This document shows, in pieces, positions 16,377 through 42,195 of a stretch of DNA of 44,161 nucleotides. Source of the DNA: a virus; IMG/VR virus record IMGVR_UViG_3300030333_004214, positions 1 through 44,161 of that record; one strand, given 5' to 3'. The position numbers and the translations under genes were made by a program. The notes under the pieces were generated by a model. That model was given only the letters and a program-made list of their open reading frames with translations. It was not told where the DNA came from and did not search any database. Position 1 is the stretch's first letter, and each line of letters starts with the position of its first letter.

Positions 16377-16822
16377 TCAAAGTCCTCCGCCCAATGATGG
16401 TCTACTGGTATCCCTGCTTCGTTCTGCGCGTAACGCATGGTCCATTGAGTGCCTCCTCTGGTATTCTCCCAATCTCGACCTATGTGTCGGCCACGGCTAA
16501 ACTCTGAAGGGAATGCGAGGAGGTGAGTAGAGTCATGAACTAATGCCATATTTCTAGCATAATACTTGTTAGGTCGAGCATAGCGATAGCGAGGGTCGTC
16601 ATGGTGGTGCTCGACGAATGGTATGTCATTCTCTTCAGCGAATCTCCTACCAAAGGTATCTGCTCCTGTCTGTCCCCCAGATACCATCTGGTCTGGTCTC
16701 CCATTTTGACGAATCCAATCATTGACTCTGTCTCTGAAGGCTTCGTAATTTCTGAGTGAGCGAGAACCTGAGATACCTAGAGAGATATATCCCTTGCTCT
16801 TAAGGACATTGAACCACGTCAA
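16373..16822 (-). CDS. SLOG-family (DUF2493 / YspA-type Rossmann) protein (149 aa)
   Basis: The sequence follows the SLOG nucleotide-binding fold: GISGSRSL (16-23), MVSGGQTGADTFGRRFAEE (46-64), YARNMALVHDSTHLLAFP, and GTQWTMRYAQNEAGIPV near the end. Known relatives bind nucleotides or nucleotide-derived ligands, and some act in phage-host conflict or nucleic-acid handling. The start appears to be TTG overlapping the terminase stop as TTGA; no in-frame ATG lies before the first motif. It is encoded between the large terminase and the LAGLIDADG protein, so a role in packaging or in a nuclease module is possible but inferred. Confidence 0.85.
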   Translation of the reverse strand: MTWFNVLKSKGYISLGISGSRSLRNYEAFRDRVNDWIRQNGRPDQMVSGGQTGADTFGRRFAEENDIPFVEHHHDDPRYRYARPNKYYARNMALVHDSTHLLAFPSEFSRGRHIGRDWENTRGGTQWTMRYAQNEAGIPVDHHWAEDFE

Positions 16823-19896: not shown

Positions 19897-21875
19897 CTGA
19901 TTGCCACCTTCACCGACTTAACTACATGGGGGTCTACTTTCAAGCGTTCCGCAATATCATCCCAATCCCCCACACTCTGCTCGATATAATGTATATCTGA
20001 CTTAGTAAGGCTATAATGCAGGCATAGTGCTTCCAAATCACGCTCATTCGACACATCATATCTCCTCTCTTCAGGCAATGATTTCATCACATAACTATCC
20101 ATTCGCGCATCTGCGGATTGCAACGATTCCATCAAATCATAGAGGCTATCGTTACTCGTAGCAATGTCGTCATCATCACGATTAGCATAGGCTGGTGGAA
20201 TGAGCCTAGGCAAACGAGGGGTAGGGATGAACTCACTTACTTTTGACGCCATTTGAGGGAAATCAGGAAGTAATGATGGTCTCTCCCATCTACCGACATC
20301 GGCTCGTGGTTGCACGCTCCCTCGCGGTTCTATACCTTGAGGCTCTAGCCATCCATCTGGGGTAGGATGGCGGGCAAAGTCAGCAGCACTCACACTAGGT
20401 GCATCAAAGTGCATTCTCATGAACAATTGCTTCAACTCCCTACCTGTCTCCAAGTTATCCCCCATAGAATAAGGCATCTGGTTGAGTTCTCGTGTAGCCT
20501 TCGCTCTCCAATCCGGTCTTTGCTCAAGCATCATGGACAGCAGCAAACCTTGCCTCAATGTCTTATTAGCAGCAGCGTGGGAATGACCTTGCTGGGCCTC
20601 TCCAAAGTGATTACCGAGCCCCATGTGATTAACATTGATATTGAACTTCCGATTCCAACGTCTCATCTCATTCGGCATATGTCGAGGAAGGTACATCTCC
20701 TCCTTACCAACAGGAGCGCGCCCCCACCTAGGGAGACCTACTGCTTCACGCATCTTATTGTACCAATGAAAAGTCTGACTAGCACTACGAAGAGCATTGT
20801 CACCTGCTCGTGAGTCTTCTAGTATTTGCATCAGGATACTCCGTGAGAAATTCTCCACATGCTCATCGCTCACCATGCCCGGAGGTACGTTTCCGACTCG
20901 CGTCAATATCTGCCTAGCATAGTCACGTCTAGCATCACTCACTTTAGAAGGATGAATAGCAGGTTGGAAGAAACCCTCCCACAGGCTACCTAAGCCGCTC
21001 CTCAAGGATACATGAGGGTGCTTTCGACGATGCGCTGGTATTGGGTTGCTAGCCTCATTTGGGTCTTGATTGGCATGCCAGTACTTCCAGAAGTTGCTCT
21101 GCTTGTCAGTCATGGGGTCAGTGTGAATGACGAATTCCTCTGGTTTGATATATCCATGACGCATAGTAGAAGGCATGTCTTCTACTGTCAGATTCCAATG
21201 ATTCGCTACAAGAGAGAGATATTGCATAATAGCGCCGAAAAACCCACCCTCTGACATGTGCCCCCAGTTCTGATGGTCAGCGTTGCTGTGATTCAATGTG
21301 ACATAATTGCCTTTCGAGTTTTTGATGCGGATGTTCTGCGGCTCTATGTGATTACCCAAACTACCCAGTTTCTGATACTCAGGCACATATACATTGAGTG
21401 ATTTCTCCAAATCGGGATGTAAGGTCCCCCTGTCGGTATCTGTGAATACATGTCCCGAGCCTTCTTGGTAACCCCCATAACCACGCATACCCCGAGTATG
21501 GGGGTACAGATTGTTGGTTTTGCTATCTCGTTGAAGATTAGCCTTGTTGAATTGCTCTGCTGCTTGATTGACATATTCCCGAAGAAGTTTTTTAGTCGAA
21601 TCTGGGTCCATAGGCCCTACTTTCTTAGTGAGATGCCAATACATCCCTTCTACTAACGCCTCATAGACGTTCCTGAGGTCATACCCATCACGAGGGTCCA
21701 AACGACGTCCAGTGAGAGGGTCGATGTGAAAGGGGTTCTCCGACAACGTACCGTCCCGTTGCCCATAATTCTCTAGCATCTGAGCAGGTGAAAGGGCGAG
21801 AAGTTGCCCTCCACGGTCTTCAGCATGCTGGCCTTGAACAAGGACCCCATTGCCCTTCAGAATAATGTCATCCAT
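19890..21875 (-). CDS. Unknown late protein (661 aa)
   Basis: I use the ATG at 21873-21875, not the longer frame, because it has GGAGGGG about 10 bases upstream and overlaps the upstream stop as TGATG. The protein opens MDDIILKGNGVLVQGQ, another hydrophobic-Leu-Lys motif. The body is His, Asn, Arg and Met-rich, with a DPLTGRRLDPRDG turn-like segment near residue 45 and mostly soluble character. The last 60 residues look like a small helical domain (LEALCLHYSLTKSDIHYIEQ ... VDPHVVKSVKVAIRW), possibly helix-turn-helix-like. Function unknown. Confidence 0.7.
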   Translation of the reverse strand: MDDIILKGNGVLVQGQHAEDRGGQLLALSPAQMLENYGQRDGTLSENPFHIDPLTGRRLDPRDGYDLRNVYEALVEGMYWHLTKKVGPMDPDSTKKLLREYVNQAAEQFNKANLQRDSKTNNLYPHTRGMRGYGGYQEGSGHVFTDTDRGTLHPDLEKSLNVYVPEYQKLGSLGNHIEPQNIRIKNSKGNYVTLNHSNADHQNWGHMSEGGFFGAIMQYLSLVANHWNLTVEDMPSTMRHGYIKPEEFVIHTDPMTDKQSNFWKYWHANQDPNEASNPIPAHRRKHPHVSLRSGLGSLWEGFFQPAIHPSKVSDARRDYARQILTRVGNVPPGMVSDEHVENFSRSILMQILEDSRAGDNALRSASQTFHWYNKMREAVGLPRWGRAPVGKEEMYLPRHMPNEMRRWNRKFNINVNHMGLGNHFGEAQQGHSHAAANKTLRQGLLLSMMLEQRPDWRAKATRELNQMPYSMGDNLETGRELKQLFMRMHFDAPSVSAADFARHPTPDGWLEPQGIEPRGSVQPRADVGRWERPSLLPDFPQMASKVSEFIPTPRLPRLIPPAYANRDDDDIATSNDSLYDLMESLQSADARMDSYVMKSLPEERRYDVSNERDLEALCLHYSLTKSDIHYIEQSVGDWDDIAERLKVDPHVVKSVKVAIRW

Positions 21876-23206
21876 CACATATGTCCCCTCCGAGGCAAGA
21901 GTAGACCGATTGGATGAGCACCCCAATATCGCGGGTCATCCTCAGGGTCCACTTCTGTGGCTCCGGTTGGGTGGCTGGTCGTCTGCCTGTGTGAATTCGG
22001 GGTCGGACGCTCATCGTCGTGTTCGGCATCTTCCAGACCGGCCTTCCTCAAGGCTCCCGAGTTCAATAATCTCCTCAATTCACGAACGAGCCACTTAAAC
22101 TCAGTGATGTCTGCACCGCTAATCTTGGCTTTCTGGATTAAAGAGTCCAATTGCTCCATGGACATCTTGAACATACTAGCAGTAGGGCTCTGAGGTATGA
22201 AACCAGTCATACCACTACCAGAAGCAAAACCGCCACTGGTATCAGACAGAGGCATAGCCACACCACCTACATTGTGGGTTCTATCGACTCTAGACTGCTG
22301 TGGCGCTTGGCGAGCGGAAGGGGTCATATCACTAGCAGCGACATGGGGGTCATGTATCCTCACTCCACTGTGAGCACCCAAACCCGCTTCCAGCATCTGT
22401 GTACCTTGCTGGCTTGGTAGATTGGCAGGTGAAGTATGAGCAGGGACATCTCTCTCTACTTGACTCATCTCTGCTGCCTTGTGAATACGACGCGGGTCAG
22501 GGTTCACGGAGCGTCTCATGCCTCGCGCACCACGCCCTCTTTGGGAGTGACCGTGCCGTATGGGTCCTTTGCCAGAAGTACCTACCCTCATGGTAACTTC
22601 ATGACGAGTCTTACTCTGTCCTTTCGGGTCACGAGATTGCGGGTTACCGACATGCCTGCCACTGAACTGCATGTCTAGAGATGTCTTTCCTCGAGACCTA
22701 CGCACCCTCCTAGTGCGATGAGCCCTAGCCTTCGTGCGCTTGGTAGAGATAGTATGCGTCTTACCATGTGTACCACGACCACCTTTCTTCTTGAGAAGGA
22801 GGTCAAAACCGTCTTCCATAGGATAGCCTGTCATGATATTCACAGGTGCTCCACCGAAAGCAGAACCTCCCCCCGTCTTAGCACCAGAAGCCACATCTGC
22901 TGGATAACCAGTGCTACTGGAAGAACCTGTCCTCTCGGATAGTTCCTCATCATTCCTCTGATTATCCCCTGTGGGTCTCTTCTTCTGAGGTATCTTGACT
23001 GAGAGGTGTTGCAAACCAGAGATTTTCTTGTGCCTGTGTTCCTTCTCCTTCTGCTTCTTCTCTTCCAATCGCTGTCGAGACTCCGGGTCGTCATTACCGA
23101 GATTCCTGTCTTCTTCCATCATCTCCGGCCCGTCGCGTGGGTTGAATCTCAACCCATGAGTAGTGCCTGTCCCAGAGGTGTTCTTCACGAATATCTTACC
23201 AGCCAT
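21875..23206 (-). CDS. Protein with very basic protamine-like stretch (443 aa)
   Basis: Start placed at ATG 23204-23206, 5 bases after GGAGGG. The first 60 residues are Glu/Lys/Arg-rich. Residues about 140-245 form an extraordinary Arg/Lys/His/Gly-rich region (KKKGGRGTHGKTHTISTKRT, RTRRVRRSRGKTS), much like protamine or histone tails. It is directly preceded by FDLLLKK. The C-terminal 90 residues are helical (MFKMSMEQLDSLIQKAKISG, ITEFKWLVRELRRLLNSG). A DNA-condensing or DNA-binding role, in the head or with the terminase, is inferred from charge and neighbours. No named family. Confidence 0.75.
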   Translation of the reverse strand: MAGKIFVKNTSGTGTTHGLRFNPRDGPEMMEEDRNLGNDDPESRQRLEEKKQKEKEHRHKKISGLQHLSVKIPQKKRPTGDNQRNDEELSERTGSSSSTGYPADVASGAKTGGGSAFGGAPVNIMTGYPMEDGFDLLLKKKGGRGTHGKTHTISTKRTKARAHRTRRVRRSRGKTSLDMQFSGRHVGNPQSRDPKGQSKTRHEVTMRVGTSGKGPIRHGHSQRGRGARGMRRSVNPDPRRIHKAAEMSQVERDVPAHTSPANLPSQQGTQMLEAGLGAHSGVRIHDPHVAASDMTPSARQAPQQSRVDRTHNVGGVAMPLSDTSGGFASGSGMTGFIPQSPTASMFKMSMEQLDSLIQKAKISGADITEFKWLVRELRRLLNSGALRKAGLEDAEHDDERPTPNSHRQTTSHPTGATEVDPEDDPRYWGAHPIGLLLPRRGHM

Positions 23207-23633
23207 ACTTACCCTCCGGTATGATGTCATGTGTCAGTTCCAACCGTCTCACGATATTACGATAGAACGTGATTAGTTCAGTAGGTGAAGCGAATACGCT
23301 AGAGAAGGACGACAGCATGTCCGCGAACTTGAGAAACAGGAAGTCGAGCCTCTCACGCTCTATCAAGGCATTCTCAGTATCATCTTCCATAATGACCTGA
23401 TAACTGACTTTCAACTCTTGGACCAAGCCGTTATGCAACCCATGACTCGCTGCAATCTCAGGATTGACAGGACCTACAGCCTCATACCAGCGGTCTACTA
23501 CCTCATCAAGCAAGGAAAGGAAGAGTTTCATCTCCTTGAGATGGAGAGGCCTAGGCTCAGTCAGAATACCATTCATGCGGACGTCCTTGCACATCAGACG
23601 ATGCACAGGCACCTCGAAGAACTTAGGACGCAT
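23196..23633 (-). CDS. Unknown helical protein near small terminase (145 aa)
   Basis: Mostly alpha-helical, soluble protein: MKLFLSLLDEVVDRWYEAVG, LIERERLDFLFLKFADML and TFYRNIVRRLELTHDI are clear amphipathic helices. The ribosome-binding site GGAGGAAG lies 8 bases before the ATG. It overlaps both neighbours by 11 bases, indicating coupled translation with the putative small terminase. A packaging-complex role is inferred from position only. Confidence 0.7.
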   Translation of the reverse strand: MRPKFFEVPVHRLMCKDVRMNGILTEPRPLHLKEMKLFLSLLDEVVDRWYEAVGPVNPEIAASHGLHNGLVQELKVSYQVIMEDDTENALIERERLDFLFLKFADMLSSFSSVFASPTELITFYRNIVRRLELTHDIIPEGKYGW

Positions 23634-27128: not shown

Positions 27129-27136
27129 TCAACAAA

Positions 27137-28077: not shown

Positions 28078-31000
28078 TCAAGAAAGGTCACCAGTGTCAG
28101 TATCATACTGACCTTGGTAATCAGTACTACTGGTGTCACCAAAACCCTCTCTGTAGTCATCAGCACGCCATTCAGACTCAGCAGTCGCTTCTGCTCTCTT
28201 CCTAGCCTCTGTCGACAATTGCCCTGTGTGTATGAACCATTGCTTCTCATCATCTGGGCTGATTTTCGGTAGAGTTTGATTGTCACCTATTACGTCTCGA
28301 TGACTCTTGGCATTCAAAATGGTCATGTTGGTTAAGTGCCCATCTACTGTGTCCATCACCCCTTGCCCTCTGGCTCTTGCTTCCATAGACGCTTGGAAGG
28401 GGAAATGATTGACTTGGAACTCCAAGGCTTTCTCATGAGCCTCTTCGGCATGCTTCTCCAATGCCTCATGATAGTAATCAGGCCTGATTCCAAAAGTGAG
28501 TGGTGCTGGGCGGCCAGAGTCTAGCGCATCCCCAGTAGTGAACTCGACGAGAGAGGGGTCAGCCCCTTCCTTGGTCAACGGAGGCATATTGGGGTTACCT
28601 GAAGACAGAGCCGCCAGCAAGCGTTTGGCAAGTGAGTCTTGGTTCTCGTCTAATTGTGAGAGGGGGACAGTATAAGCAGTCAAGTCATCATCCACTTCGA
28701 GTAATTCTCTCCCTCTAGGGGCTCGTATCATCATCCTCTTATTCTGCTCGCTCATACCATGCGTTGCGAATGCTTGGTGGAGATTACCTTCCGTGTAATC
28801 GGTCATCAACTCCTTACAGATATCTGCATCTAGATTCTTATTCTTATCAGCCTTGCGTTCCAAAGCGGTCACGAAACCCACAAACTCCGAAGAGAATACC
28901 CAGTCACCAGTATCAGGGTTCAACCGACCTATCTTGTGCAACTCAGTGAAAGCCTTATTATTATCCACTGCGGCAATCTTAGCCATTATCTCTTTTCCTG
29001 CAGCATCCGCCTTTGCGCTGGAGATTCTGAGTTTGTCATTCACCTTCCTCACTAGGCTATACAGACTGTGGGGGTTGGTGAAACCTTGGTAACCGTCCTC
29101 TTCCAACTTACCAGAATGTCCTAGGGATGAGCCGAAACCCGGATGCATCACAGGGATTCTGAAATGCAGACTACCTTTCGCCACCAATCGCCCGTCGACA
29201 CCAGTGTCCGCCTCGTAATGAGGGTGGTTAGCATCCGGGGAACTCAATAGGTATGTCAATTGCCAGTAAGTCCTTTCATCTTCCTCGCTGACCTCCTTAT
29301 GCAGTGGGTTTCCGTGTTTATCATAGGGAACAATGGCCTTGTAAAAGGCATCAATGAAAGACTGGCTATCCATTCGACCCCCTATTCTCTCATCGAACTG
29401 CCCATGCAAGGTAGGCACCCCAGTGAATTTGTACCACGTACATAGAGGCTGGTCAACAGGCATTTCCACACTTCGATACACCTCCTGCCCGGCCATTGGA
29501 TGCGAATCAGGGTAATGGATAGGGTTTCCCTTGTGGTCCACGACTTGCACATACTGCCTCTCAGGATAGGCTCGCATTTTGCCTGTCGCGGGGTCTATGG
29601 CAGGGTCCACCCCTGTACTCACTATTGACTCCAATCTATCACGAAGCCGTTCCCTGTGCATTTTCTCAACTATGTGCTCAGGAGGGTCCTGTGCTGTGCG
29701 ACCCACTAGATATTCCCTTGCGAGTCTCTGCTTCGGCCAGTTCCCTATGCCAAATTCTTTCAAGTACTTGAAATCGTAGTTGTGCCCCGGCCAATTGCAT
29801 TGCCCTTCTGTGAGGTGTGGCTTAGTATCATCCAAGTAAGGGCTATCTACCATTTTATTCTTGCAAGGCCGTATGTATTGCTTGCTTTCTTCGTATATCG
29901 GCTCTTCACCATTCGCTCTACATACACAACTAGTTATGTCCGAGAGGAATTCACCATACGTTGGCGAGTCCTTATCCTCGTCTTGCTGCTTACCTGCCCC
30001 GCATCTCGCACATGACCTGTGAGTTACTGCTTTGCGATTGAGAGTTTGCTTGCAACAGGGGCATGACTGCTGTCCATTTTTGACGGCGTATTGGTTCTTG
30101 TCATAGGGATTCCCAGAGTCTTCCCCTACCCCTATGTCATGCAGGTTGTAGTCATCATCCCTCCCCTTGACCTTTATCATTCCCATTGCGTTAGTCGGTA
30201 TCCCATCTGCATCTCCCCAGCCGGGATGGTCGAAGTAATCAATACCACGACCTAGGTAGACACCGTCAGCACCGAAGTGCCTTTGGAAGAGCGGTTGCCG
30301 ACCAAGACCCTGCCAGTCAGAGACATGCCCTTCACCTAAATCGAAGATGCTGAACTTGGAGCCGTTCCTCTCGAACATCGGTATCAAGTACCCTCCCCCG
30401 TCAGGAGACCTGACACCATGGAAGCCGATGAACATCAACCCGCCTAGATGGGAGAGAGACAAACCAGTGTCGTTGTATTCTACATCAGGGAATGCTCCCG
30501 GCCTTCTGCTAGCAATCCTATCCCCTAAATCTGAGGCATTGAGAGTGGTGTACTTGATGAGCCTTCTAGCGAATTCACCTCCTACTATTCTACGGTAGTG
30601 TCCTCGAAGTTTCTGACCTTGGGAATCCTCGAACATGCCTTCCATCTTGGTCATGATGTTGCCATGGTGGTGAGAGCAATAATGACCATGGGGGTTGTAG
30701 AACTCACCCGGCTTATCTGGCCCATATGTGGCTGCAGCAGGCCGTGTTCTTACACCCTCTCCGTCACACACGAAACATTTGATAGGTGAGGCTCCTTCGT
30801 GATTGTGGCTCATATCGCCAGTACCTTCACAGTATTCGCAAGCATGGCCTTCCGTTCTGAAGGTGTCTTCGCAATGAGGGTGCTCGCATGTTGGTAATGA
30901 TTCCCCTGCGTCACCATCACCGAAATGTCCCCTAGGGAATACCATCCCGTATTTATTGAAACCAGATTCATGCATGTCAGTCCACCACGAAGGGCGTAGA

Positions 31001-34000
31001 GGCATGCCCGGCACTAAGGCTCGTGCTCGTGTGGAAAGCGAGTATAACAGAGAAGCAAGAGCCTCAGGCTCTAATTGCGCTTGAAGCGTATTAGTGAGTT
31101 CCTGACGAGGGAGGAAGTCACTTTGCGTTTCCAATGGCATTGATTTTCCAGTCTCTCGGGACATGAACGTATTGAAAGAGCCGCCCGGCCAGCCATGTTG
31201 AGCACCCTTAGCACCCCTGATTGTCCTCAAATAGCCCAACGGGTCATCATGAACCATTCTATCCAATTGCCAGTTTTGGAATGAACCTACGCTATCATCG
31301 GCAGTTTTACGTATCGCCGCTACTATGTCTTTTGCCGCGTTAGGTGATACAGCATCCCTTTCTCCTTTACGACGGAAGTATTCTGTAGCCCAATCTCTCA
31401 GACTATCGTCATCTTTTATCTCCCCTATGGTTCTGAGCATGTCTTGAGCCCACTTTTTATCATCTGATACTATAGATAGATTGTTCTCGTCTTTCACAGG
31501 TTTGCCTTCTTCGTCTCTCTCTATCTCAGGGGCCAATTGGTCTCTAGCCCACTTCGTTGCAATTCTATGCCATGCTTCTTCCTGTTCCTGATGCCAGTCA
31601 TCGACGCTGCCTATCTCGAATGGCCTATCATCAGGCCCTATAGGGTCCATAGGGACATAGTCCTCAATCTCGGGCTCAAACTCTCTTTTCTGTCCTTCAG
31701 CGAAACTGGAGACGAACCTACCAACTGCACCATCATCGCTTTTGAGCCAATGAGCAGCACGTGGTTGGTATTGCACTTTGCCGTTTTCGTCGGCTATGAT
31801 ACCCACACCTAGGTTCTTCATGAAGACCAAAGCCATGTTGATGTCTTGTATGGCCTTACTTACACCTCTCTCATGCTCCTGTTGACCTGCCCCATCACAA
31901 GAACCGCAATGCCCAGTACCTTGACATGCTATACAAGCAAACTCATGCGCTGGGAGAATGTTGTCCATCCCGCCGAATTCAGGGTCTGCTAGAGAAGGAT
32001 AATGTCGTGTTAATTCATCTATGTACTTGTCCCATTCCGATTCATCCCAGTCATCACCTACATGCCCTAAATGGCGCGGTCGTAACTCTTCTCGTATGAA
32101 CCTCATGGAATCCGGGTGTGCCCAATTGACATCGTGCGTAGTCCCTGCTTTCATGGGTAATGGTACCCTCTTGTCTCGAGTCGTGCCATCCAGTTCTACT
32201 ATCTGGACTGGCTTGCCTTCCGCATCCCTCTCTACTACGGTAGGGACATCCAAAAAGCGACCTTCTTCATCATGATACTGTAGTTTTGCAGCATGCCATT
32301 TAGCAGCCTCATCCACAGTATGATGAATACCATGTCCATGACATGATAAGCACCTTGTCGCTGTACCGAGTGTGTTCAGCCCTATAGGTGCTTGATTGTG
32401 CCCTGCTCGCTGCATGCTTTGCTTACTGAACTCGGGGAAACTCGCCCTATTCACTATCTCATTTCGTAGATGGAACCAAGCGCCTTTCAAGGCCGTGCTT
32501 TCATTAGTGGACAGTTTGAGCATCGTATCCATATCAGGGAATTTCTTACCGTCCATTACCTCGGTCATGACTTGATTTACCTTCCAAGACTTATCTGGGT
32601 CTCTCTTTCGCACTAAGCGAGTAATGCCCTTGCCGCCTGTGACTCCCTTCCAGAGAATATCCATTAGGTTATCACCGTTCTCGTCCTTGTCCTCTAGAAT
32701 CTCACCGAGGCTCTTCCCAGTGACATTCCACAGACTGGTGCCTGAATTGGGGCCTTCCATGATGGTATTGTACGAATCATCCAATTCTTCATGTGCGACC
32801 CATTTATGGAACAATTCTGGATTTGGGAGGTTTCTCATCTCGTGCCAGAAGCCCCACACACTAGGATGGTTCTCATAAGGCTGCATGAAACCATGCTCAT
32901 CAGCATCGAAATGGGCTGATGTCTTATCAATGGCGTCATGGACAGCAGAGCGGTTGAGAGCGTCGAATACGAAATCCAAAGGCCCTATCTGCCCTTCTTC
33001 CCCTTCCAAGCCTCTCCAATTCACACCTTCTCCGAAATGAGCGAACAGAGGTGGCTCTTCACCTGCTTTCACTATAGGAGGGAAATGGAAGATGCTATTC
33101 AATACAGGTTCGTCTGGTTGGAGGTTCATCTCCTGCTGTAAGAGTTGCTTCCTGCGTGGCGTCAGGTAATCCTGCCAGTCTTTCTCGAGGGCTAGGAAAG
33201 GCCTGAGTTTCAAATGATGGTGCTGACGAAACTCAGCCTGCTCCTCTGGAGTCAAAGCGACGTTATCTAGATTCTTCCTAAGCACCCTAATAGCCCACAA
33301 GGCCCTACTTACACGAGGGAGGTATTTGCCCTCGTCTATCAATTTACGCAAGTGATGCTGAATACCACCATCCCTGCCGACTGCTGAAAACCAACCTAGG
33401 GGGTTTTTATGGTTGTGAGCAGCGAGATTGGGGTCGATGATATGCATCGCTAGGAGCCTCTTCAATTGCTCCATCCCCTCATCGCTATGAGGCATGGCTT
33501 CTTCTGCGGCACGCAATCGGGCTGTGCTGGCATTGAAGGACTCTGGGAGCATTTGGTTGAGTCTAGCAGTCGGTGACATGGGATGACCACGACCGAATGG
33601 ATTGCCACCACCCATTGTACTGAGACGAGCGCCCATTATGAGAGCAGGGGGTACAGGGGTAATGATGGGAATCCCAAGACTCTGTGATGGTTTCAGAACC
33701 TTCATGATATTCGTGAAAGGGTCATGGCTGACTCTCTTGGCCCACGCTTCATCCATGGAGGGTTCCAGCATATCCATTAGGTTCTCATAGTCTGCCAAAT
33801 GCGGCTCCATCTTTGCAGTGTAAAGCAGGTCTTCTATCATCTCGTTGACCATTTTAATAGGTGGCACTCCCTCCATGACGTTCACATCCCCTCCACAGTC
33901 ATCGTAGATTTTCTGCCAATCCGCTGCTGACACAGGGCATTCTACCTCATAACTCGCTTCTCCCCTCGCTCTCCCTTCTTCCAAGTGGTCTTCCAGTGTG

Positions 34001-37000
34001 GGAATATCCATCGTACCCCCATGGTGCATTGCTTTCCTAGCACAATAGGGGCAAGGATGCTGTGTAATGACATCCTCGGGGATGATTCTAGGGTCATAAA
34101 GGCCGAGTTCCGACTTGATGTTCGGACTCACCATCCCAAGACCGCTGACTACATGCCTCCAATCGACTTGATAAGTACGCTCATCTTCAGGTACCTCTTC
34201 ACCTTTCGGTTGACCTGCTTTCTCATGGTCCGGGGGGTAGACTGCAGGAAGAGTGAGATTGAGGTCAGGTAAAGCACCCTTGCGTCCCATGCGCTCGTTC
34301 CAAGCATCTCTGACATCTTGATTGCGTATCTTATCCACTAATTCGTCTATCTTAGCGTCCATCTCATCTCTAGAGAGTTCTACTGGTTGCCTAGTTATGG
34401 GGTCTATGCCCTTCCCATATTTTCCAATATCCCCCCCGCTACCTAGAGCCTTGACTTCATTCATCAACTCGAAGAGTTCAGTATAGAGGGCATTCTGCCT
34501 ATCGAGTTGTTCTCTATTACGACGCCTTGTCGGTATCAAGAACCTATCACGTGAGAAGACAGGGGACATGGTAGGGGCTCTCAACTTGGTTCTATCTTGA
34601 ACTTCTACCACCCTACCGTCTGGGAGGTGATAACTCCTCTTCGGTGGAGTGTGGCTACGTCCCTTCATCATCATCGAGAGAGTGGTATGGTCACCTTCAC
34701 GAATGACATCGTGATGTCCGCATTGGCAAACCTCACACATCTTCCCGCTAGGGCTGAGATGAGCGTTGTCCAGAATGCTCCTAGTGCCTCGATGCTCATA
34801 ATCCAAATCTCCCCTAGCGTGCATGATGCGTATATCCTCATCAGAGAAGTCCTCGAACATCTCAGGCCGACGCGCTATCTGCTTTCTCACACCTTCGCTT
34901 TTCGTCCCCTTGCAGTCCGGGCATAGTTTGCTTTCATTCATCCGACCATCAGGCCAATGTGCGTAACCACTACCATTGCAAGTAGAGCACGCGCCCATCT
35001 CCATGAGCCCTTCATCTAGCATCATGTTCCTATTGTCAGTGTCTCCTTGGTATATCTGACCAACTAGAGTGTCAATGGAGGGAATGTCATTGTCGTTCAG
35101 AGCATGTACTACCCTTTGGAACCATGTAGAATCGACTGCGTTCACAGGCTCCAAGGCTCGTATCAGACCAGCACCAAAACCACCGGGCAATGACCCTTCT
35201 AGGGCATCTGGTATCTTCTGGAAGAGCCTGCGATACCTATCTATGAAAGCATCAGCGTTCCCTGCTTTGTGCCATTCTTCCAACAGACGCCCTCGTGTCA
35301 GGAAGCCACCTGCATTAGTGAGTTCCGGCAAAAAGAAGATAGGGTGGACTTCAACGGGGTTCACTCCCTCATCGACAGGTATCATTCTCTTGAGCAGAGA
35401 ACTTCGCAAACTCGCCCCATATATGCTCTCTCTCCCATCATATGCGAAAGACTCCCTTATTCTATCATTTGCTCTTTCCTTTGCTTCTAACTGTACTAAG
35501 GACTGGAAGTCAGAGATGCCACTAGACCTGAAATTAGCATCACGGAGTATGCGGGTATCAGCGACGTAACTTTTCCCACCTTCCTCTTTAGAGAAGGGGT
35601 CATCACCACCTTTGCACATCTCGCATTGGGGGTCAGCACTGCCATGGCAAGCGGGGCAGAGAACCATGTGCCCGATACGCATAGCGAACTTCTTATCGTA
35701 CTCATCCGCTTGCTGTAACAGGCCTTTTTCATGCTCTATCCCATAACCTGCATTAAACCAACTATGACTTCGGTCAGGAGCACCTACCTCTACCTTGCTT
35801 TCACCTTCGTCGTTGGTGTACGTTGTCTTGCCTAGCAGTTCATGCTGGAGTTTCTCGAAAAGCATCTTTGCCTCGATAGTCCCCGGCTTCCTTGGGTGCA
35901 TGTATGTGAGCATCCCTGCCATCTTACTGGCACCCACTTGGTTCGTGCCTGAGCACTGTACTGCTTCTGGGCTCCCCAATTCCCCTTCGACATGCCGGCA
36001 GGATTTGCCAGTAGCGAAAGACCTACCCGCATCATCGCACTGGTCACACTTCTGAAGAGTGCCCTTGTGATACTCCTCAGTGGCTAAGGATTCTGACAAC
36101 TGCTCTTTCTCTTTCGCAGTGAGCCCCTTCATGGCATGCCTTCTCAAATCGCTATCCACTAATCTCTGGAAAGACGGATGGTTAGCAACCTCCATGAGAT
36201 TCCTGACACTCCGAGTTTTGGGGTCCAATAGGATATCCGTTAATAGCGCCATTCTCTGATAATCGCGGAAGTTGCTCTCTTGCTTACCAAATCGCACTCT
36301 TGGTTTCACCCCTGTCGCAAAGCGAGTCCCGCGGAGCAGCCTGTCCACCCAGAATCTCCTATCCGGTCCTTCTTCAGGCAAACCACTCAATTGCCTGAGT
36401 AACTCATCCGCTTGCTGCTTGTTCAATTCCCCTTGCCTTTGGCTGGTGTATATGCTCTCTCGCGTTCCCGGTTTCTTCTTCAATACTGCTTGTAATAGTT
36501 CTAGATAGACCCCGTCTCTCACAGGACGTAAGAAGGGGTGCATCTCCATGCGTCCCATATGAGTATCCCATTTCTGATTCAGTGCGGTAAGGTCATCTCC
36601 TCGAATATCTATGATATGGGGGGAACCCGTTGGGATAGCCATAGGGTCCAACCCCTTCAAAGTACGTTCACCCTCTTCTATACGAGGCGCTGCCCCTGTA
36701 TCTTCTTCATACATCTCGTCATGTATATCACCCAGAGGGCCGTCATCGTAGAACTCATCCTCATCCACATCATACCTTTCCTCAGCCTCTGCTTCGTCAA
36801 TGGCACCTTCACCGCCGATGTCCTGAGTCTGCTCGATATAGCGATGCCTACGCCCTTCGGCATGTTTCTGAGATAAATAATTCTCGATGGACGATATGCT
36901 ATTCTGAGACCCTATTAAGCCCGTACCATTAGCATATATCGCACTTGCCATCTGAGCCATGCTATTCCTAGGAAAGTTACCGGCTTTGGCCCCTCTCTGT

Positions 37001-38688
37001 AGCAAATGACCTAAGAGGGTCAAACGGTCCCCATGTCGATTCTCGAATTTGATATCAAGTACTGCTTTCTGCACTTTCTCACTCAACCCTTCCCAACTGT
37101 TGAGAATGGGGTCAAAGTGGTTCTGCTTCCAGTCTACATCTTCTTCCCTCATCTCTTCATCTATCGCAGTGAGTGCTGCGCTTCGCTCTGGCTCTGTCGC
37201 TGACCTATGCACTACATCGAGCATCCACTCCTTAGCCATATTCAGCATATGCAACTCCCCGGCCCTCTTCTCTCTGTGACCTACTGGTAAGTCCAATCCT
37301 TCTTGAGTGAGATATTCGGCATTCGTCTTGAATATCTCATGGTCGTTGACCAATTCACGGACGTATCCCCTGAAATAATTGTATAGGGGGATTTCCATCT
37401 TCCTCTCAAGGAAGTCTTCCATGGCTCTTTGCCTGACTTCCTCCATCGGTATTTCCAAAGTCCCGTCTGCTTCTGTATGATAGGATATTCGGTCTTGTAA
37501 GATTTGTTCGTAGTTCCACCTGTCATAGTGGTCACCGCTTTCTAAATCCATAGAGTTTATCTCTTCCAAGACATTCTGACGAATCTCGCCCACATTGTCC
37601 TCGTGCAACTCTTTCTCCTCTCTGTTCGGTTCTACTGCATCTTGCCATTTGTTCGCCGGCACTGGATAGATGAACTTCTCTATCATACCCCAAGTCAAGA
37701 TATCAATAACCTTCGCTCTGAATTTCATCAATTCTAGCCTTCTCTCTGGTAGAGACATGTCATGAGGGTCTCCCAACAAACGCTTGCGTCCAGCGATGTG
37801 CTTGGCTATCCCTTCTAGAGCCTCTATGCTCGGAATATGGGGCGCATTTCCTTCCATCTCTGGAAAATCATCTGGGAAGGCCCTCTTCACTAGTCTCGCG
37901 TGGTTGCGGTTTTGTGTGTCTGGGTTTCTAGGGTTTCTGAGATTATACATCTCCCTCTCTATCTCACGAGGGGTAGGGTCAGATTTCCAGCCCATGTCAT
38001 CAGCATCTACGAGCCAACGATGAAGCATGGCAGCCTTCTGTCGTCCCATTGTAGCACCACCGAATCGGAGATATCCCTCCCCTTTGCAAGAATTGCACAC
38101 TTTATGCACTCCAGTACCTTCTATCTGGTCCCCGTTCGCGCGGTAGCGTGCAGGTGTGAAAGTCTCACCATCTCCACGGCACACATGGCAGGTCACTCCC
38201 TCTTCCCCGTCAACGAGCAGTGCAGTATCACGCTGCCTAGTAGCGAAGTCGTACTCAGCCTCCCCTTGCTCATACAAGTGATGAGTGGCTTCAGTGTAAA
38301 TGGCATCTATAGCACTGGAGAGTATGCTTTCGAGATTTGGTGACCCTACCCCTTGAGGACCTCCTGAATGAGCATGCAAGATGCTGTCCTTCGGGTCATC
38401 CGTCCGTGCGATGCTCCCATCATTCATCAACTGGTATTCAGAGCAGGCTTTCAACAAGGCATTGAATTTCGGCATGTTCCTCTTGTAATTACGACGCAAG
38501 AAGTCTTCCACAGCCGCTTCTATTCGCTCTTCTCCGTCTTCCCCTTCAATTGTGATATCGGGGTCCATCACCCTATGCACTAGTTGTCGGACTCTCTTCC
38601 TCGCTGTACGAGCAGACCACTCGTCCATCTTGAAGAGCATGTAGTCATCGAAGAGGTGATGCCATGCATCTTCCAACGGGCCAGACAT
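28078..38688 (-). CDS. Giant zinc-bead late protein (3,536 aa)
   Basis: I start at the ATG at 38686-38688 (AGGA 8 bases upstream), two codons inside a GTG reading. N-terminus MSGPLEDAWHHLFDDY resembles those of four nearby genes. Zinc-binding Cys clusters recur along the chain at roughly residues 168-206, 883-905, 1012-1025, 1235-1265, 1320, 1550, 2115, 2255-2268, 2600-2642, 2878-2900 and 2922-2965. Many are DnaJ-like CxxCxGxG units, for example CHVCRGDGE with CNSCKGEGY, CSTCNGSGY with CPDCKGT, and CIACQGTGHCGSCDGAG. Between them lie long His/Asp/Trp-rich segments of unknown fold. No polymerase, protease or helicase motif was seen. Role likely structural, in the virion or as an injected protein; this is inference. 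Confidence 0.75.
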   Translation of the reverse strand: MSGPLEDAWHHLFDDYMLFKMDEWSARTARKRVRQLVHRVMDPDITIEGEDGEERIEAAVEDFLRRNYKRNMPKFNALLKACSEYQLMNDGSIARTDDPKDSILHAHSGGPQGVGSPNLESILSSAIDAIYTEATHHLYEQGEAEYDFATRQRDTALLVDGEEGVTCHVCRGDGETFTPARYRANGDQIEGTGVHKVCNSCKGEGYLRFGGATMGRQKAAMLHRWLVDADDMGWKSDPTPREIEREMYNLRNPRNPDTQNRNHARLVKRAFPDDFPEMEGNAPHIPSIEALEGIAKHIAGRKRLLGDPHDMSLPERRLELMKFRAKVIDILTWGMIEKFIYPVPANKWQDAVEPNREEKELHEDNVGEIRQNVLEEINSMDLESGDHYDRWNYEQILQDRISYHTEADGTLEIPMEEVRQRAMEDFLERKMEIPLYNYFRGYVRELVNDHEIFKTNAEYLTQEGLDLPVGHREKRAGELHMLNMAKEWMLDVVHRSATEPERSAALTAIDEEMREEDVDWKQNHFDPILNSWEGLSEKVQKAVLDIKFENRHGDRLTLLGHLLQRGAKAGNFPRNSMAQMASAIYANGTGLIGSQNSISSIENYLSQKHAEGRRHRYIEQTQDIGGEGAIDEAEAEERYDVDEDEFYDDGPLGDIHDEMYEEDTGAAPRIEEGERTLKGLDPMAIPTGSPHIIDIRGDDLTALNQKWDTHMGRMEMHPFLRPVRDGVYLELLQAVLKKKPGTRESIYTSQRQGELNKQQADELLRQLSGLPEEGPDRRFWVDRLLRGTRFATGVKPRVRFGKQESNFRDYQRMALLTDILLDPKTRSVRNLMEVANHPSFQRLVDSDLRRHAMKGLTAKEKEQLSESLATEEYHKGTLQKCDQCDDAGRSFATGKSCRHVEGELGSPEAVQCSGTNQVGASKMAGMLTYMHPRKPGTIEAKMLFEKLQHELLGKTTYTNDEGESKVEVGAPDRSHSWFNAGYGIEHEKGLLQQADEYDKKFAMRIGHMVLCPACHGSADPQCEMCKGGDDPFSKEEGGKSYVADTRILRDANFRSSGISDFQSLVQLEAKERANDRIRESFAYDGRESIYGASLRSSLLKRMIPVDEGVNPVEVHPIFFLPELTNAGGFLTRGRLLEEWHKAGNADAFIDRYRRLFQKIPDALEGSLPGGFGAGLIRALEPVNAVDSTWFQRVVHALNDNDIPSIDTLVGQIYQGDTDNRNMMLDEGLMEMGACSTCNGSGYAHWPDGRMNESKLCPDCKGTKSEGVRKQIARRPEMFEDFSDEDIRIMHARGDLDYEHRGTRSILDNAHLSPSGKMCEVCQCGHHDVIREGDHTTLSMMMKGRSHTPPKRSYHLPDGRVVEVQDRTKLRAPTMSPVFSRDRFLIPTRRRNREQLDRQNALYTELFELMNEVKALGSGGDIGKYGKGIDPITRQPVELSRDEMDAKIDELVDKIRNQDVRDAWNERMGRKGALPDLNLTLPAVYPPDHEKAGQPKGEEVPEDERTYQVDWRHVVSGLGMVSPNIKSELGLYDPRIIPEDVITQHPCPYCARKAMHHGGTMDIPTLEDHLEEGRARGEASYEVECPVSAADWQKIYDDCGGDVNVMEGVPPIKMVNEMIEDLLYTAKMEPHLADYENLMDMLEPSMDEAWAKRVSHDPFTNIMKVLKPSQSLGIPIITPVPPALIMGARLSTMGGGNPFGRGHPMSPTARLNQMLPESFNASTARLRAAEEAMPHSDEGMEQLKRLLAMHIIDPNLAAHNHKNPLGWFSAVGRDGGIQHHLRKLIDEGKYLPRVSRALWAIRVLRKNLDNVALTPEEQAEFRQHHHLKLRPFLALEKDWQDYLTPRRKQLLQQEMNLQPDEPVLNSIFHFPPIVKAGEEPPLFAHFGEGVNWRGLEGEEGQIGPLDFVFDALNRSAVHDAIDKTSAHFDADEHGFMQPYENHPSVWGFWHEMRNLPNPELFHKWVAHEELDDSYNTIMEGPNSGTSLWNVTGKSLGEILEDKDENGDNLMDILWKGVTGGKGITRLVRKRDPDKSWKVNQVMTEVMDGKKFPDMDTMLKLSTNESTALKGAWFHLRNEIVNRASFPEFSKQSMQRAGHNQAPIGLNTLGTATRCLSCHGHGIHHTVDEAAKWHAAKLQYHDEEGRFLDVPTVVERDAEGKPVQIVELDGTTRDKRVPLPMKAGTTHDVNWAHPDSMRFIREELRPRHLGHVGDDWDESEWDKYIDELTRHYPSLADPEFGGMDNILPAHEFACIACQGTGHCGSCDGAGQQEHERGVSKAIQDINMALVFMKNLGVGIIADENGKVQYQPRAAHWLKSDDGAVGRFVSSFAEGQKREFEPEIEDYVPMDPIGPDDRPFEIGSVDDWHQEQEEAWHRIATKWARDQLAPEIERDEEGKPVKDENNLSIVSDDKKWAQDMLRTIGEIKDDDSLRDWATEYFRRKGERDAVSPNAAKDIVAAIRKTADDSVGSFQNWQLDRMVHDDPLGYLRTIRGAKGAQHGWPGGSFNTFMSRETGKSMPLETQSDFLPRQELTNTLQAQLEPEALASLLYSLSTRARALVPGMPLRPSWWTDMHESGFNKYGMVFPRGHFGDGDAGESLPTCEHPHCEDTFRTEGHACEYCEGTGDMSHNHEGASPIKCFVCDGEGVRTRPAAATYGPDKPGEFYNPHGHYCSHHHGNIMTKMEGMFEDSQGQKLRGHYRRIVGGEFARRLIKYTTLNASDLGDRIASRRPGAFPDVEYNDTGLSLSHLGGLMFIGFHGVRSPDGGGYLIPMFERNGSKFSIFDLGEGHVSDWQGLGRQPLFQRHFGADGVYLGRGIDYFDHPGWGDADGIPTNAMGMIKVKGRDDDYNLHDIGVGEDSGNPYDKNQYAVKNGQQSCPCCKQTLNRKAVTHRSCARCGAGKQQDEDKDSPTYGEFLSDITSCVCRANGEEPIYEESKQYIRPCKNKMVDSPYLDDTKPHLTEGQCNWPGHNYDFKYLKEFGIGNWPKQRLAREYLVGRTAQDPPEHIVEKMHRERLRDRLESIVSTGVDPAIDPATGKMRAYPERQYVQVVDHKGNPIHYPDSHPMAGQEVYRSVEMPVDQPLCTWYKFTGVPTLHGQFDERIGGRMDSQSFIDAFYKAIVPYDKHGNPLHKEVSEEDERTYWQLTYLLSSPDANHPHYEADTGVDGRLVAKGSLHFRIPVMHPGFGSSLGHSGKLEEDGYQGFTNPHSLYSLVRKVNDKLRISSAKADAAGKEIMAKIAAVDNNKAFTELHKIGRLNPDTGDWVFSSEFVGFVTALERKADKNKNLDADICKELMTDYTEGNLHQAFATHGMSEQNKRMMIRAPRGRELLEVDDDLTAYTVPLSQLDENQDSLAKRLLAALSSGNPNMPPLTKEGADPSLVEFTTGDALDSGRPAPLTFGIRPDYYHEALEKHAEEAHEKALEFQVNHFPFQASMEARARGQGVMDTVDGHLTNMTILNAKSHRDVIGDNQTLPKISPDDEKQWFIHTGQLSTEARKRAEATAESEWRADDYREGFGDTSSTDYQGQYDTDTGDLS

Positions 38689-38732: not shown

Positions 38733-39233
38733 CTAGACGAAAGACTCAGGCGCGAAAGAAGAACGAGAAGTTCCTCCTGCATGAGTCGAGTCACCGTGGG
38801 AGGGGAACCCCAGACCATCCGATGTGCCCATCTCCTTTGCTGAGCGGTTTAGAGCATCCCCGCTATCTACGTCACTGAAGCCATTGCCCGGCGTCTCGGG
38901 CAGGTGCGCTCTAGCCATTCTGATAGCGTCAGTGAGTGATTTGATGGCCTTGTCTACTGGGTTGATGACCTTCTTGGCGTTAGGGGCGAGTAGCAACTCA
39001 CCCACATCCTCCTGCAATCGGTGCAAATCGTCCCTAGCCCTTGTCATGACAGGGAGGTTGGTCATAATGTAGTTCTTGATGGAGTCATTGTTGATATTGG
39101 CGTTATGCTGCATCTTGGCATCATTGAACTTCTGCTCATGGTCGGCTATGACCTTCTCAGGGGTGTCAGGGAGTTTCTGCATCCCCTCAGCGCCTTGCTT
39201 CAGGACTTCCCATGACTCCTGCTCTGGAATCAT
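38733..39233 (-). CDS. Unknown late protein (166 aa)
   Basis: The start at ATG 39231-39233 is favoured: it overlaps the upstream stop as ATGA, GGAG lies close upstream, and it places MIPEQESWEVLKQGAEG at the N-terminus, matching the motif of neighbours. A 12-residue longer GTG reading exists. The protein is helical and acidic (DTPEKVIADHEQKFNDAKMQ, TRARDDLHRLQEDVGELLL), with a low-complexity C-terminus. It lies 44 bases upstream of the giant zinc-bead gene. Function unknown. Confidence 0.7.
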   Translation of the reverse strand: MIPEQESWEVLKQGAEGMQKLPDTPEKVIADHEQKFNDAKMQHNANINNDSIKNYIMTNLPVMTRARDDLHRLQEDVGELLLAPNAKKVINPVDKAIKSLTDAIRMARAHLPETPGNGFSDVDSGDALNRSAKEMGTSDGLGFPSHGDSTHAGGTSRSSFAPESFV

Positions 39234-40144
39234 GCATCTCCGCTCCTCATTTGCTGAATTTTCGCCCACTCTGCGTCAGAAAGACCCTCAGGCCTACCAG
39301 CGTCAGAAGCCTGTTCAGCATCTGAGTTTTGCAGATGACTGAAAGAAGAATCTAGAGGACTCTCCGTTGACTCACCCGTTGATTCTGGAGGGGTAGCGGA
39401 TGGCGTTTGTCCACCACCGGACACCACTTCCTTCGTTCCATCCTGATAGTGGTGCGTCACAATCGGGTCCATGCCCTCATCATGAGGGGTTAGGGTGTGA
39501 ACTTTAACGAGCCCTCTCTCTGGGTCTAGGAAGCGTGTCGTTGTCGATGTACCCTTAATTCTCGGTTTCCTTGCTCCATACTTGTTCCCAGTCTCACGCT
39601 CTAGCCTTACCCTAAAATGGTCACCAGTGCCTGCTCCCCAAGGACCGTCGTCGTAGAACCCCAGTTTTTCCCCAGTTTCAGGGTGAAAATGCTTAGACTT
39701 TGATTGTGCTATCCTATGACGAACCCTAAGAGCACTCTTTGCTTTCTGTCCCAATTGAAGCATATGGTTTGTTGCTGCTTCGCCGGGTTGCATTGGGTGC
39801 CCGGTCTCAGGGTCAATGAGACCACCAGCGAAATACCTATCATCAGGATGGCTGCCCTCATCATGGACTCGACTCAAATCATTATCCACGAGGGCGTCAT
39901 GCAAGTGACCTAGCGCTAGTAGTTCGTCTCGGTAGTATCCAGTCCCAGCGTCGCCCTTGACGTTCTCATGGCCTTTGTCGGTGAGGGTCCTCTTCCTCTT
40001 CTTGACGTTCGCCCCTCTCCACATATCGTTGACCAGTTCCCATAGGGACTTGACGGGCCTCCCTTCAGTGTGTTCCTCGTCACGGTCAGCAGCAGCCTTT
40101 ACTAGAACAAGAGAGCCGGGACTACTCCTGACCAGCACTGCCAT
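39230..40144 (-). CDS. Unknown late protein (304 aa)
   Basis: N-terminus has SLVLVKAAADRDEE (hydrophobic-Val-Lys-Ala motif as in other late proteins). The middle part (GTGYYRDELLALGHLHDALV, YFAGGLIDPETGHPM, HFHPETGEKLGFYDDG) looks folded and contains repeated DP/HP-E-T-G turn motifs; a beta-rich segment follows around TTRFLDPERGLVKVHTLTP. The C-terminus is Ser/Thr/Pro-rich and ends with a short helix (LSDAEWAKIQQMRSG). Ribosome-binding site is unclear; a 43-base gap separates it from its upstream neighbour. Function unknown. Confidence 0.65.
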   Translation of the reverse strand: MAVLVRSSPGSLVLVKAAADRDEEHTEGRPVKSLWELVNDMWRGANVKKRKRTLTDKGHENVKGDAGTGYYRDELLALGHLHDALVDNDLSRVHDEGSHPDDRYFAGGLIDPETGHPMQPGEAATNHMLQLGQKAKSALRVRHRIAQSKSKHFHPETGEKLGFYDDGPWGAGTGDHFRVRLERETGNKYGARKPRIKGTSTTTRFLDPERGLVKVHTLTPHDEGMDPIVTHHYQDGTKEVVSGGGQTPSATPPESTGESTESPLDSSFSHLQNSDAEQASDAGRPEGLSDAEWAKIQQMRSGDA

Positions 40145-40187: not shown

Positions 40188-40967
40188 TCAGACCCATCCG
40201 CCTGCAGGTTTGATGTTCAACCCCATTTTGGCTCGGAAGTCCGACATGGACGGGATATTGCTAAACATACTACTAGCGGCATTGCCTAGATTTTGCATGC
40301 CAGTAGCGCTAGGGTCATGAGCCTCAGTTCCGAAACTGGGAGATAGCACGTTACTCGCCTCATTTGCCCCTTCTGGCGTCATAGCATCCCTCCCTATATC
40401 CATTAAGTGCTCGAAACCTGTCTTTGCCTGCTTTGGTGCAGAGGAGACGCTACCAGTCTGTGCTCCAGTCTGCTGCCCATCGTGCATCTCATTTACGTGT
40501 GCATCAAGGCGTCCCTGTATCTCCAATGCTTGATTTTTAGTAGGCTGGGAGGCTGGTTTGGGTGCTGGGCCATGCATAACCCCGACTTTTTTACTGCCCG
40601 ACCCCACTTCGGCAGTTTTTTGGTTAGTAGCACACTGTTGATTCTGGCACTCTCCCCCAGTGCTAGGCGCAGCACAGGTCTCACAACTCTCCCCAGTGCT
40701 GTTCGGACCGATATTCGATGGCTCGGGAGCCTCCATGTGGGTCGATGGGTCGTTGATTTTGAATTTCTTGGCACTGGCTAACTCAGGAATTTTAGCAGGG
40801 GGTCGGTAGTCCTTGTGAGCAACACCTCCCAATTGTCCCGTATGAGGGTCCTTCACGTGACCTGCTGTGGTGTTTGTAACATACTTGAGCAGAATCGAGT
40901 CCTTCATCGTGCGCCAAGCCTGCTCCATGTAGGCCTCGTGGAGTTGGAAGGCTGTCGCTTGAGCCAT
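40188..40967 (-). CDS. Unknown late protein with Cys pairs (259 aa)
   Basis: The start overlaps the upstream stop as TAATG. The N-terminal helix MEQAWRTMKDSILLKY combines the Trp-x-x-Met-Lys motif with an ILLK motif. A Cys-rich central part (ESCETCAAPSTGG and ECQNQQCATNQK, about residues 93-114) may bind zinc. The remainder is Ser/Pro/Asn-rich and probably disordered, with Met/Gly-rich helices near the C-terminus. Function unknown; part of the five-gene group before the giant gene. Confidence 0.65.
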   Translation of the reverse strand: MAQATAFQLHEAYMEQAWRTMKDSILLKYVTNTTAGHVKDPHTGQLGGVAHKDYRPPAKIPELASAKKFKINDPSTHMEAPEPSNIGPNSTGESCETCAAPSTGGECQNQQCATNQKTAEVGSGSKKVGVMHGPAPKPASQPTKNQALEIQGRLDAHVNEMHDGQQTGAQTGSVSSAPKQAKTGFEHLMDIGRDAMTPEGANEASNVLSPSFGTEAHDPSATGMQNLGNAASSMFSNIPSMSDFRAKMGLNIKPAGGWV

Positions 40968-41653
40968 TATGTCCTATCCCCTGCCAATGGCCCTAGTGGG
41001 TTATCTGCAAAGAGGGATGTCGACGTTACACCCACATCAGGGGCTGGTTGTCTCTGGATTATTCTTTTCGTCGGGGTTGGAGACTGAGCCCCTTGGAGTT
41101 TTGCATGTGATTCACTAGCCCTACTACTGGCTTTCTTCTTATCTGCCGCGAGCCTGTCCTGCACACGCTGCCAATGCTCTCGTGCTTTCTTACCTGCTAA
41201 AAACCCCGGTTTCGTTGTTGCAGCCATCAGATTCCCAATAGCATTGGCCCTTGCGTCCATCCTCTCCCCTTCTCTCTGGTGAGCCATGTTATCCAAGGCT
41301 ACATTGCCCTCTATTTGCGCTACTGGGGCATCGCCTTGAGCGACAGCCTTTCCACCGCTCCAATCACCAGCCGGTGCTAAATTCTTCGCAGATGGGGCTG
41401 GCCAAGTTTTGCCGCCTACAGGTGCACTATGTGTGTACTGGTTAGGGTCTGCGACGTTGCTCATGTCTAATTCTCCTTTGGCATCTGGCCCTTGAATAGG
41501 ATAGGTATTTGCTTGCCAGTACTGGCTAGGGTCGTCTTGCACTTGATTCTGCGCTAGAGTCCAAGCAGGGGCAGGCGCATTCTTCAGAATCGACCAAGCA
41601 TCCTCTAGAGCCATGGCTAGCGCAAGGGGGGTCAGGCTAAGAGATTTGCTCAT
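40967..41653 (-). CDS. Unknown late protein with AWSILK N-terminal motif (228 aa)
   Basis: The start at 41651-41653 overlaps the upstream stop as TAATG. Residues 14-24 read MALEDAWSILK, nearly the same as the first residues of the next gene; an internal ATG at 41611-41613 would start exactly there but lacks a ribosome-binding site. The body is Ala/Pro/Asn-rich with a helical Lys/Arg region near residue 150 (KKAREHWQRVQDRLAADKKK). It is probably soluble and partly disordered. Function unknown. Confidence 0.65.
   Translation of the reverse strand: MSKSLSLTPLALAMALEDAWSILKNAPAPAWTLAQNQVQDDPSQYWQANTYPIQGPDAKGELDMSNVADPNQYTHSAPVGGKTWPAPSAKNLAPAGDWSGGKAVAQGDAPVAQIEGNVALDNMAHQREGERMDARANAIGNLMAATTKPGFLAGKKAREHWQRVQDRLAADKKKASSRASESHAKLQGAQSPTPTKRIIQRQPAPDVGVTSTSLFADNPLGPLAGDRT
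41581..41613. repeat. Direct repeat copy 1 (codes MALEDAWSILK)
   Basis: This 33-base segment matches 42163-42195 at 27 of 33 positions. Most differences are silent or conservative, indicating a shared N-terminal coding segment in two adjacent genes. Confidence 0.7.
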
Positions 41654-42195
41654 TAATCTTCCCAGTGATGTACGGGGCGCACACTCCCCTGTAGGTTGAA
41701 GTCATCACTGTCATCCAGCCAGAAGTCCCCACTACCCTGCCCTGCTGTAGCATGAGCGTTGGCAGGAGGGTAACGCACTTGCGGTTTGGTGAATCTCCCT
41801 TGTTTCAAACCACCCTCTATACCCAACTCCCCTTCACCTTTCATCCCATGCTCGTCCCTCAAGTGCTGGTAGGACCTTTCAGGGTCATTCACGTGAGGTG
41901 TCACGTGGTCAGGCACATCGACATACATCAGGACCTTCTTCCCACTCTGCCTCTCGTCTTTTTCATCGCCTGTACCCGGAAAATGTGCGTATTTCGTCGC
42001 TTGTCTCCAATCAGGGTGGAACCATCTCCCCTGATAGCCCCAATCATCCTCGCCCTTAGGCGCTAGGGGATATTTTCCTGCTGTGGACCCTTGATACAGC
42101 CTCTGATGGCCCTCAGGTACGGGTGGGAGGGCGTCAATGTGCTCTTGGGTGGGTCTAGCCATCTTGAGGAACGACCATGCTTCCTCTAGGGCCAT
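41653..42195 (-). CDS. Unknown late protein, first gene of minus-strand module (180 aa)
   Basis: Begins MALEEAWSFLKMARP. The rest looks like one compact domain: VPEGHQRLYQGSTAGKYPL, GYQGRWFHPDWRQATKYAHF, KKVLMYVDVPDHVTPHV and a C-terminal WLDDSDDFNLQGSVRPVHHW. The RLYQG/GRWFHPD/A.KYA arrangement slightly resembles small ADP-ribosyltransferase-like or toxin-like folds, but the evidence is thin and I do not assign it. It is the promoter-proximal gene of the long minus-strand module, downstream of a 270-base non-coding divergent region. Confidence 0.65.
   Translation of the reverse strand: MALEEAWSFLKMARPTQEHIDALPPVPEGHQRLYQGSTAGKYPLAPKGEDDWGYQGRWFHPDWRQATKYAHFPGTGDEKDERQSGKKVLMYVDVPDHVTPHVNDPERSYQHLRDEHGMKGEGELGIEGGLKQGRFTKPQVRYPPANAHATAGQGSGDFWLDDSDDFNLQGSVRPVHHWED
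42163..42195. repeat. Direct repeat copy 2 (codes MALEEAWSFLK)
   Basis: Partner of 41581-41613 (27 of 33 identical). It codes the first eleven residues of the 180-residue protein. Confidence 0.7.

Follow-up and report, generated by a model that had tools for sequence, protein, structure and literature searches.

In the window (the whole stretch of DNA analysed, a 44-kb fragment from a record classed as viral), the giant gene is part of an operon whose products are unrelated to one another but have a short tag in common, and the giant protein bears the tag at its own N-terminus. The tag, first seen in an alignment of the giant's orthologues, has the motif P-[MLIF]-[DE]-x-A-W-x-[LIV]-L-K and is found in three (weakly, in four) of the five genes just upstream of the giant gene (Table 1). 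Our working hypothesis, to which we give slightly less than an even chance, is that the giant is a hypervariable multi-zinc protein, expressed late, which is loaded into the capsid by its tag, co-packaged, ejected, and active in the archaeal cell. Late expression is what its strand and gene order would imply.

Table 1. Positions of the giant gene, its putative zinc clusters, tagged neighbours and packaging or capsid genes in the window
Feature	Position (strand)	Remarks
Major capsid protein	1404..2555 (-)	context
Prohead protease, Peptidase_S78	2555..3940 (-)	context
Portal	13036..14982 (-)	context
Terminase large subunit (TerL)	16819..18222 (-)	context
Basic 451-aa protein upstream of TerL, internal tag MTGYPMEDGFDLLLK	21875..23230 (-)	15.7 bits
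Giant, probable multi-zinc protein	28078..38688 (-)	3,536 aa from ATG 38688, 3,538 aa from GTG 38694
Putative zinc cluster, residues 2878-2898	30001..30063 (-)	Cys motif and 4-orthologue alignment
Putative zinc cluster, residues 2603-2643	30766..30888 (-)	C2603 and C2608 invariant
Universal putative zinc core, C2115xxCxGHG ... C2254xxCxGT-x2-C2263xxCxGxG	31897..32352 (-)	near-invariant in 11-13 member alignments
Cys motifs at residues 1320, 1548, C1586	33937..34737 (-)	invariant across 4 orthologues
Putative zinc cluster, residues 1236-1261	34912..34989 (-)	Cys motif and 4-orthologue alignment
Putative zinc cluster, residues 1013-1027	35614..35658 (-)	Cys motif and 4-orthologue alignment
Putative zinc cluster, residues 883-914	35953..36048 (-)	3/4 Cys invariant across 4 orthologues
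Putative zinc cluster, residues 169-203	38086..38190 (-)	window protein only
Giant's N-terminal tag PLEDAWHHLF (M-S-G-PLEDAWHHLFDDYMLFK)	38650..38679 (-)	8.4 bits, shuffle p = 0.003
Operon gene upstream of giant, 178 aa, weak tag IPEQESWEVLK	38733..39269 (-)	3.6 bits, shuffle p = 0.018
Operon gene upstream of giant, 259 aa, N-terminal tag YMEQAWRTMK	40188..40967 (-)	11.1 bits
Operon gene upstream of giant, 228 aa, N-terminal tag MALEDAWSILK	40967..41653 (-)	17.7 bits
Operon gene upstream of giant, 180 aa, N-terminal tag MALEEAWSFLK	41653..42195 (-)	

The position matrix for the tag was built without window sequences, from relatives found by eye, so that the early counts are partly post hoc; it gave 79 matches, and 6 when the proteins were shuffled. 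Out-of-sample evidence comes from the N-terminal tags of the window, the remaining full genomes and the controls. Matches per 10,000 positions numbered 12.7 at the N-terminus, 20.6 at the C-terminus and 1.5 internally, a density 8-14 times higher at termini, and internal tags made up 33 of 98 matches. A degenerate DNA pattern of the tag was found in 76 IMG/VR stretches, many of them coding for 5-13 tagged proteins. Across eight near-full genomes, six of which had been picked through a match to the tag pattern (the strand comparison itself being made within genomes), 75 of 462 ORFs on the TerL strand were tagged, as against 3 of 401 on the PolB strand (Fisher p = 2.5e-18). With the tag masked, 85 tagged proteins fell into 65 unrelated families with a single within-genome paralogue pair in an all-against-all BLAST, which rules out a duplicated N-terminal domain. 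The codons of the tag vary freely at synonymous sites; the tag is therefore a protein motif, and a promoter or other DNA element is ruled out. None of the 204 ORFs of four control viruses carried the tag, and a search of 84,980 cellular genomes for its N-terminal form gave just two matches, neither of which belonged to a tagged ORF; given this near absence, an origin of the tag in the host is unsupported. A Pfam scan of 20 tagged proteins returned mainly unknowns, and a literature search with the letter strings of the tag found no paper containing them.

The giant's own tag in the window is degenerate at 8.4 bits, compared with 20-26 bits for the aligned N-termini of its orthologues. The tag stands at the N-terminus of the giant in the window and in relatives G006, G007 and G009, and at the C-terminus in G007, G009 and G001; counting either end or both, the tagged giants are those of the window, G006, G007, G009, G001, G005 and G037. 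One clade of intermediate-size orthologues (G014, G016, G017, G020 and L138) has no recognisable tag, the giants of G016 and G017 beginning at the record end. A second tag-plus-zinc design occurs in a 577-aa protein (L228:2972-4705, G037), in which three internal tags alternate with a zinc motif of the DnaJ type (PF00684, 26 bits), and another tagged protein (L113:3242-4840, G023) also bears a SLOG domain.

The window encodes a major capsid protein, an S78 prohead protease, a portal and TerL, and its virus appears to be a magrovirus-like tailed archaeal virus. Its TerL has 95 relatives in IMG/VR; the near-full relatives are 90-118 kb long, with PolB opposite in strand to TerL, a layout published for magroviruses of Poseidoniales (PMC10768690, PMC12999244), and so share the features that define Magrovirales (90-120 kb, PolB and structural module on opposite strands, a halovirus-like portal). 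As this assignment was made by layout and portal, and not against a named magrovirus record, we only infer that the host is archaeal. The window portal shares ~30% identity with those of tailed viruses of Haloarcula, and tailed haloarchaeal viruses (Druskaviridae, HVTV-1) also share a similar gene order (TerL-portal-protease-MCP), but the examined stretch of HVTV-1 has neither a giant gene upstream of TerL nor the tag. The portals of the window and of HVTV-1 (L132:22369-24237) each contain several CxxC and are possibly zinc-stabilised.

Several other genes of these viruses deserve mention. A second giant gene (3979-11652 (-), 2,557 aa) lies between portal and protease in the window; its C-terminal part (4393-5535) bears a weak resemblance to the nucleotidyltransferase fold of the snurportin cap-binding / DNA-ligase type, the KxDG motif with its lysine seems to have been replaced, and only ~500 residues are well conserved among relatives. 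A small SLOG (YAcAr) protein (16373-16822 (-)) between TerL and the next gene has detectable counterparts in just two of the relatives compared, G022 and G023 (27% identity). Two frames overlap on the same strand at 26404-27228 and 26409-27128 (-), and we take the 239-aa frame to be the real gene because of the difference in conservation (94% vs 67%). One ORF of 5,100-5,980 aa without CxxC occurs in each of G007, G016, G023, G028, G030, G031, G033, G034 and G037; these ORFs lie downstream of the capsid genes, are unannotated, lack the tag where scanned, and perhaps encode a tail protein or adhesin.

The giant protein (pI 5.4, ~400 kDa) contains no strongly hydrophobic 19-residue stretch. The ATG at 38688 lies two codons inside the GTG ORF and has an SD-like GAAGGA just 5' of it, which makes 3,536 residues a reasonable length. 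Of its 48 Cys, 32 fall inside a CxxC, and there are 16 CxxC in about ten clusters, with eight exact CxxCxGxG; in 2,000 shuffles the mean was 0.64 CxxC (maximum 4) and 0.005 CxxCxGxG (maximum 1), bearing out an earlier note on this DNA that had described a 3,536-residue protein rich in CxxC clusters, many of them exact CxxCxGxG. The self-comparison for repeats that the same note had proposed (self-BLAST) found no internal repeats, and the clusters are therefore not copies of one unit.

A search of IMG/VR with the whole window giant found no relative, and its orthologues were reached through TerL synteny, some by profile and synteny only. They share a locus upstream of the TerS/TerL block in magrovirus-like marine viruses and range from 914 to 3,538 aa, with ORFs of 3,090 aa (G006), 3,040 aa (G007), 2,748 aa (G009), 2,500-2,600 aa (G001, G005, G014, G016, G020) and 914-941 aa (G027, G037). 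The giants of the window, G006, G007 and G009 align along their length, sharing 23-31% identity and 26 invariant Cys, while more distant orthologue groups match the window giant, by profile, only around one zinc core. This three-motif core (about residues 2115-2266) is universal, the other clusters being conserved only within the window's clade, and the invariant columns of 11- and 13-member core alignments are practically only its Cys and Gly. A helical block at residues 1724-1870 is conserved too. Most orthologues get by with four CxxC-type motifs, and in those of G027 and G037 the only Cys are the eight that make up four CxxC, a pattern that supports metal binding and hints at an ancestral element of two sites and four motifs, three of them in the 2115-2266 core. 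The Cys clusters are probably structural sites, with zinc the likely metal, and the further clusters would stiffen domains gained in the window's clade. Compared with the closest relative, G001, most neighbouring genes are 85-98% identical but the giant is not detectable by BLAST, indicating that the giant is hypervariable and that the locus turns over fast. The giant is a member of a family not described before, in which both size and number of clusters are hypervariable. The earlier note's statement that no family has this plan needs qualifying, for related marine viruses carry orthologues of 914-3,090 aa at this locus, and the note had overlooked the tag. In G022 (46251-54780) and G023 (about 100-107 kb) there is no giant upstream of TerL, and 200-600-aa ORFs, mostly tagged, occupy the place instead, as if the cargo had been split or replaced.

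Because the tag is carried by unrelated, fast-evolving proteins on the late strand, near packaging genes and together with a prohead protease, it resembles a capsid-targeting sequence, and on this resemblance and the precedent of P1 DarB we take the giant to be virion cargo, probably ejected. Proteins of the capsid-targeted class are products of late genes in viruses with a prohead protease, and here the giant gene lies on the TerL strand and an S78 protease is encoded in 17 of 17 records long enough; the class also has a short, conserved terminal targeting motif common to its cargo proteins, and the terminal motif shared by the proteins here may have that function. The tag would act as a targeting signal by which cargo attaches to the prohead core; the giant would be co-packaged with DNA, perhaps trimmed by the S78 protease, and ejected with the genome, to serve for protection or takeover within the archaeal cell. 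Reduced Cys4 sites would suit a protein of the cell interior or the capsid lumen.

In a purely morphogenetic role, the tag would bind the prohead scaffold or core and the giant would help in morphogenesis or scaffolding, to be removed or kept, and not ejected for a job in a new cell. Such a role would accord with the late strand, the adjoining packaging genes and the tag within the 451-aa protein upstream of TerL, which is conserved and very basic, but we regard it as unlikely, as cores are usually conserved and here the bodies, their size (914-3,538 aa) and even the gene number vary, and do so between viruses whose TerL are 88-98% identical. We would put at a similarly low level the idea that the tag recruits late proteins to a viral or host hub in the infected cell (virus factory, transcription or translation machinery, or membrane) and that the giant works only there. 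That a genome has many tags, which often lie internally and recur within one protein, does recall short linear motifs that bind hubs, but the tag is almost absent from ORFs of the early/replication strand and essentially so from cellular genomes, a distribution that makes a general ligand of a host hub unlikely. A tail, baseplate or other structural protein of the virion surface is more doubtful still: size and fast evolution recall receptor-binding proteins and the structural module shares the giant gene's strand, but the giant gene is upstream of TerL and at a distance from the genes for the tail, zinc clusters of reduced CxxC would be unlikely on an oxic marine exterior, and the untagged downstream ORFs of 5,100-5,980 aa are better candidates for giant tail proteins.

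Searches for a known fold were consistent with a protein of no described family, as the earlier note had supposed. Pfam and PHROG scans gave nothing above cut-off, PDB profile searches gave only weak matches to zinc motifs (e.g. DnaJ structure 1exk, E = 0.09), and two AlphaFold models of low confidence (pLDDT 49.5 and 61.6) gave no Foldseek match at E < 1. No recognisable catalytic or effector domain and no P-loop of note was found. A virion RNA polymerase of the N4 or crAss type was rejected on a coarse polymerase-motif test, D-x-D-x-D occurring only in acidic stretches (DVDED 642 and DEDKD 2905) outside the invariant columns. The DnaJ-like chaperone or poly-zinc substrate-binding protein envisaged by the earlier note is very improbable, because the likeness, seen in CxxCxGxG motifs, the 1exk match and the four CxxC (8 Cys) of the smallest family members, does not extend beyond the local motif: PF00684 reaches 18.8 bits where the cut-off is 32.7, no Pfam J domain (HPD) was detected, the clusters lie hundreds of residues apart with no repeat unit, and the DnaJ plan of four tandem CxxCxGxG within ~70 residues is never present.

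If the tag does load cargo, its reach would extend well beyond the giant. We consider it plausible, though somewhat less likely than not, that one short code loads proteins by the dozen into capsids for delivery to the cell, proteins that are unrelated, evolve fast and include giants of up to 400 kDa, and hold with the same reserve that this code of magrovirus-like viruses, placed N-terminally, C-terminally or internally, may give archaeal tailed viruses a modular system of cargo loading. Magroviruses have been described as perhaps third in abundance among the virus groups of marine plankton (PMC10160649). Most late genes of the viruses studied here are without assigned function, and a common tag offers a direct handle on them: in each genome it groups some ten unrelated proteins into a single functional cohort, and it predicts which proteins travel in the particle. 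The cargo reading, if true, would reveal the arsenal that an uncultured group of viruses uses for counter-defence or takeover, and provide a portable loading peptide of archaeal-virus origin.

Short loading signals are familiar from other systems. The cargo-loading peptide of encapsulins is short and loads unrelated proteins into an HK97-fold shell; it is like the present tag, by description and not by comparison of tags, in being a short peptide on unrelated proteins, and unlike it in that the shell is non-viral. The internal proteins of T4 have diverse, hypervariable bodies with one conserved short targeting sequence and are packaged in the head (PMC3012670), but the tag is a different one, and mature IPI* has 76 residues and is neither giant nor zinc-rich. 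A close parallel to the mode proposed for the giant is the Dar antirestriction system of P1, in which DarB is huge (250 kDa), has an N-terminal packaging signal whose 30 residues suffice for capsid packaging, and belongs to a cohort of head proteins in a phage with a prohead protease (PMC9024508). We found no sequence relation between the two, a tblastn search with the N-terminal 2,565 residues of the giant giving no match to DarB or any other relative in 50,697 annotated phage records, and DarB is not described as a zinc-cluster protein in PMC9024508. The Dar proteins have no common N-terminal consensus (PMC9024508), whereas the motif described here is explicit and also occurs at C-termini and, unlike in T4 and P1, internally in a third of cases.
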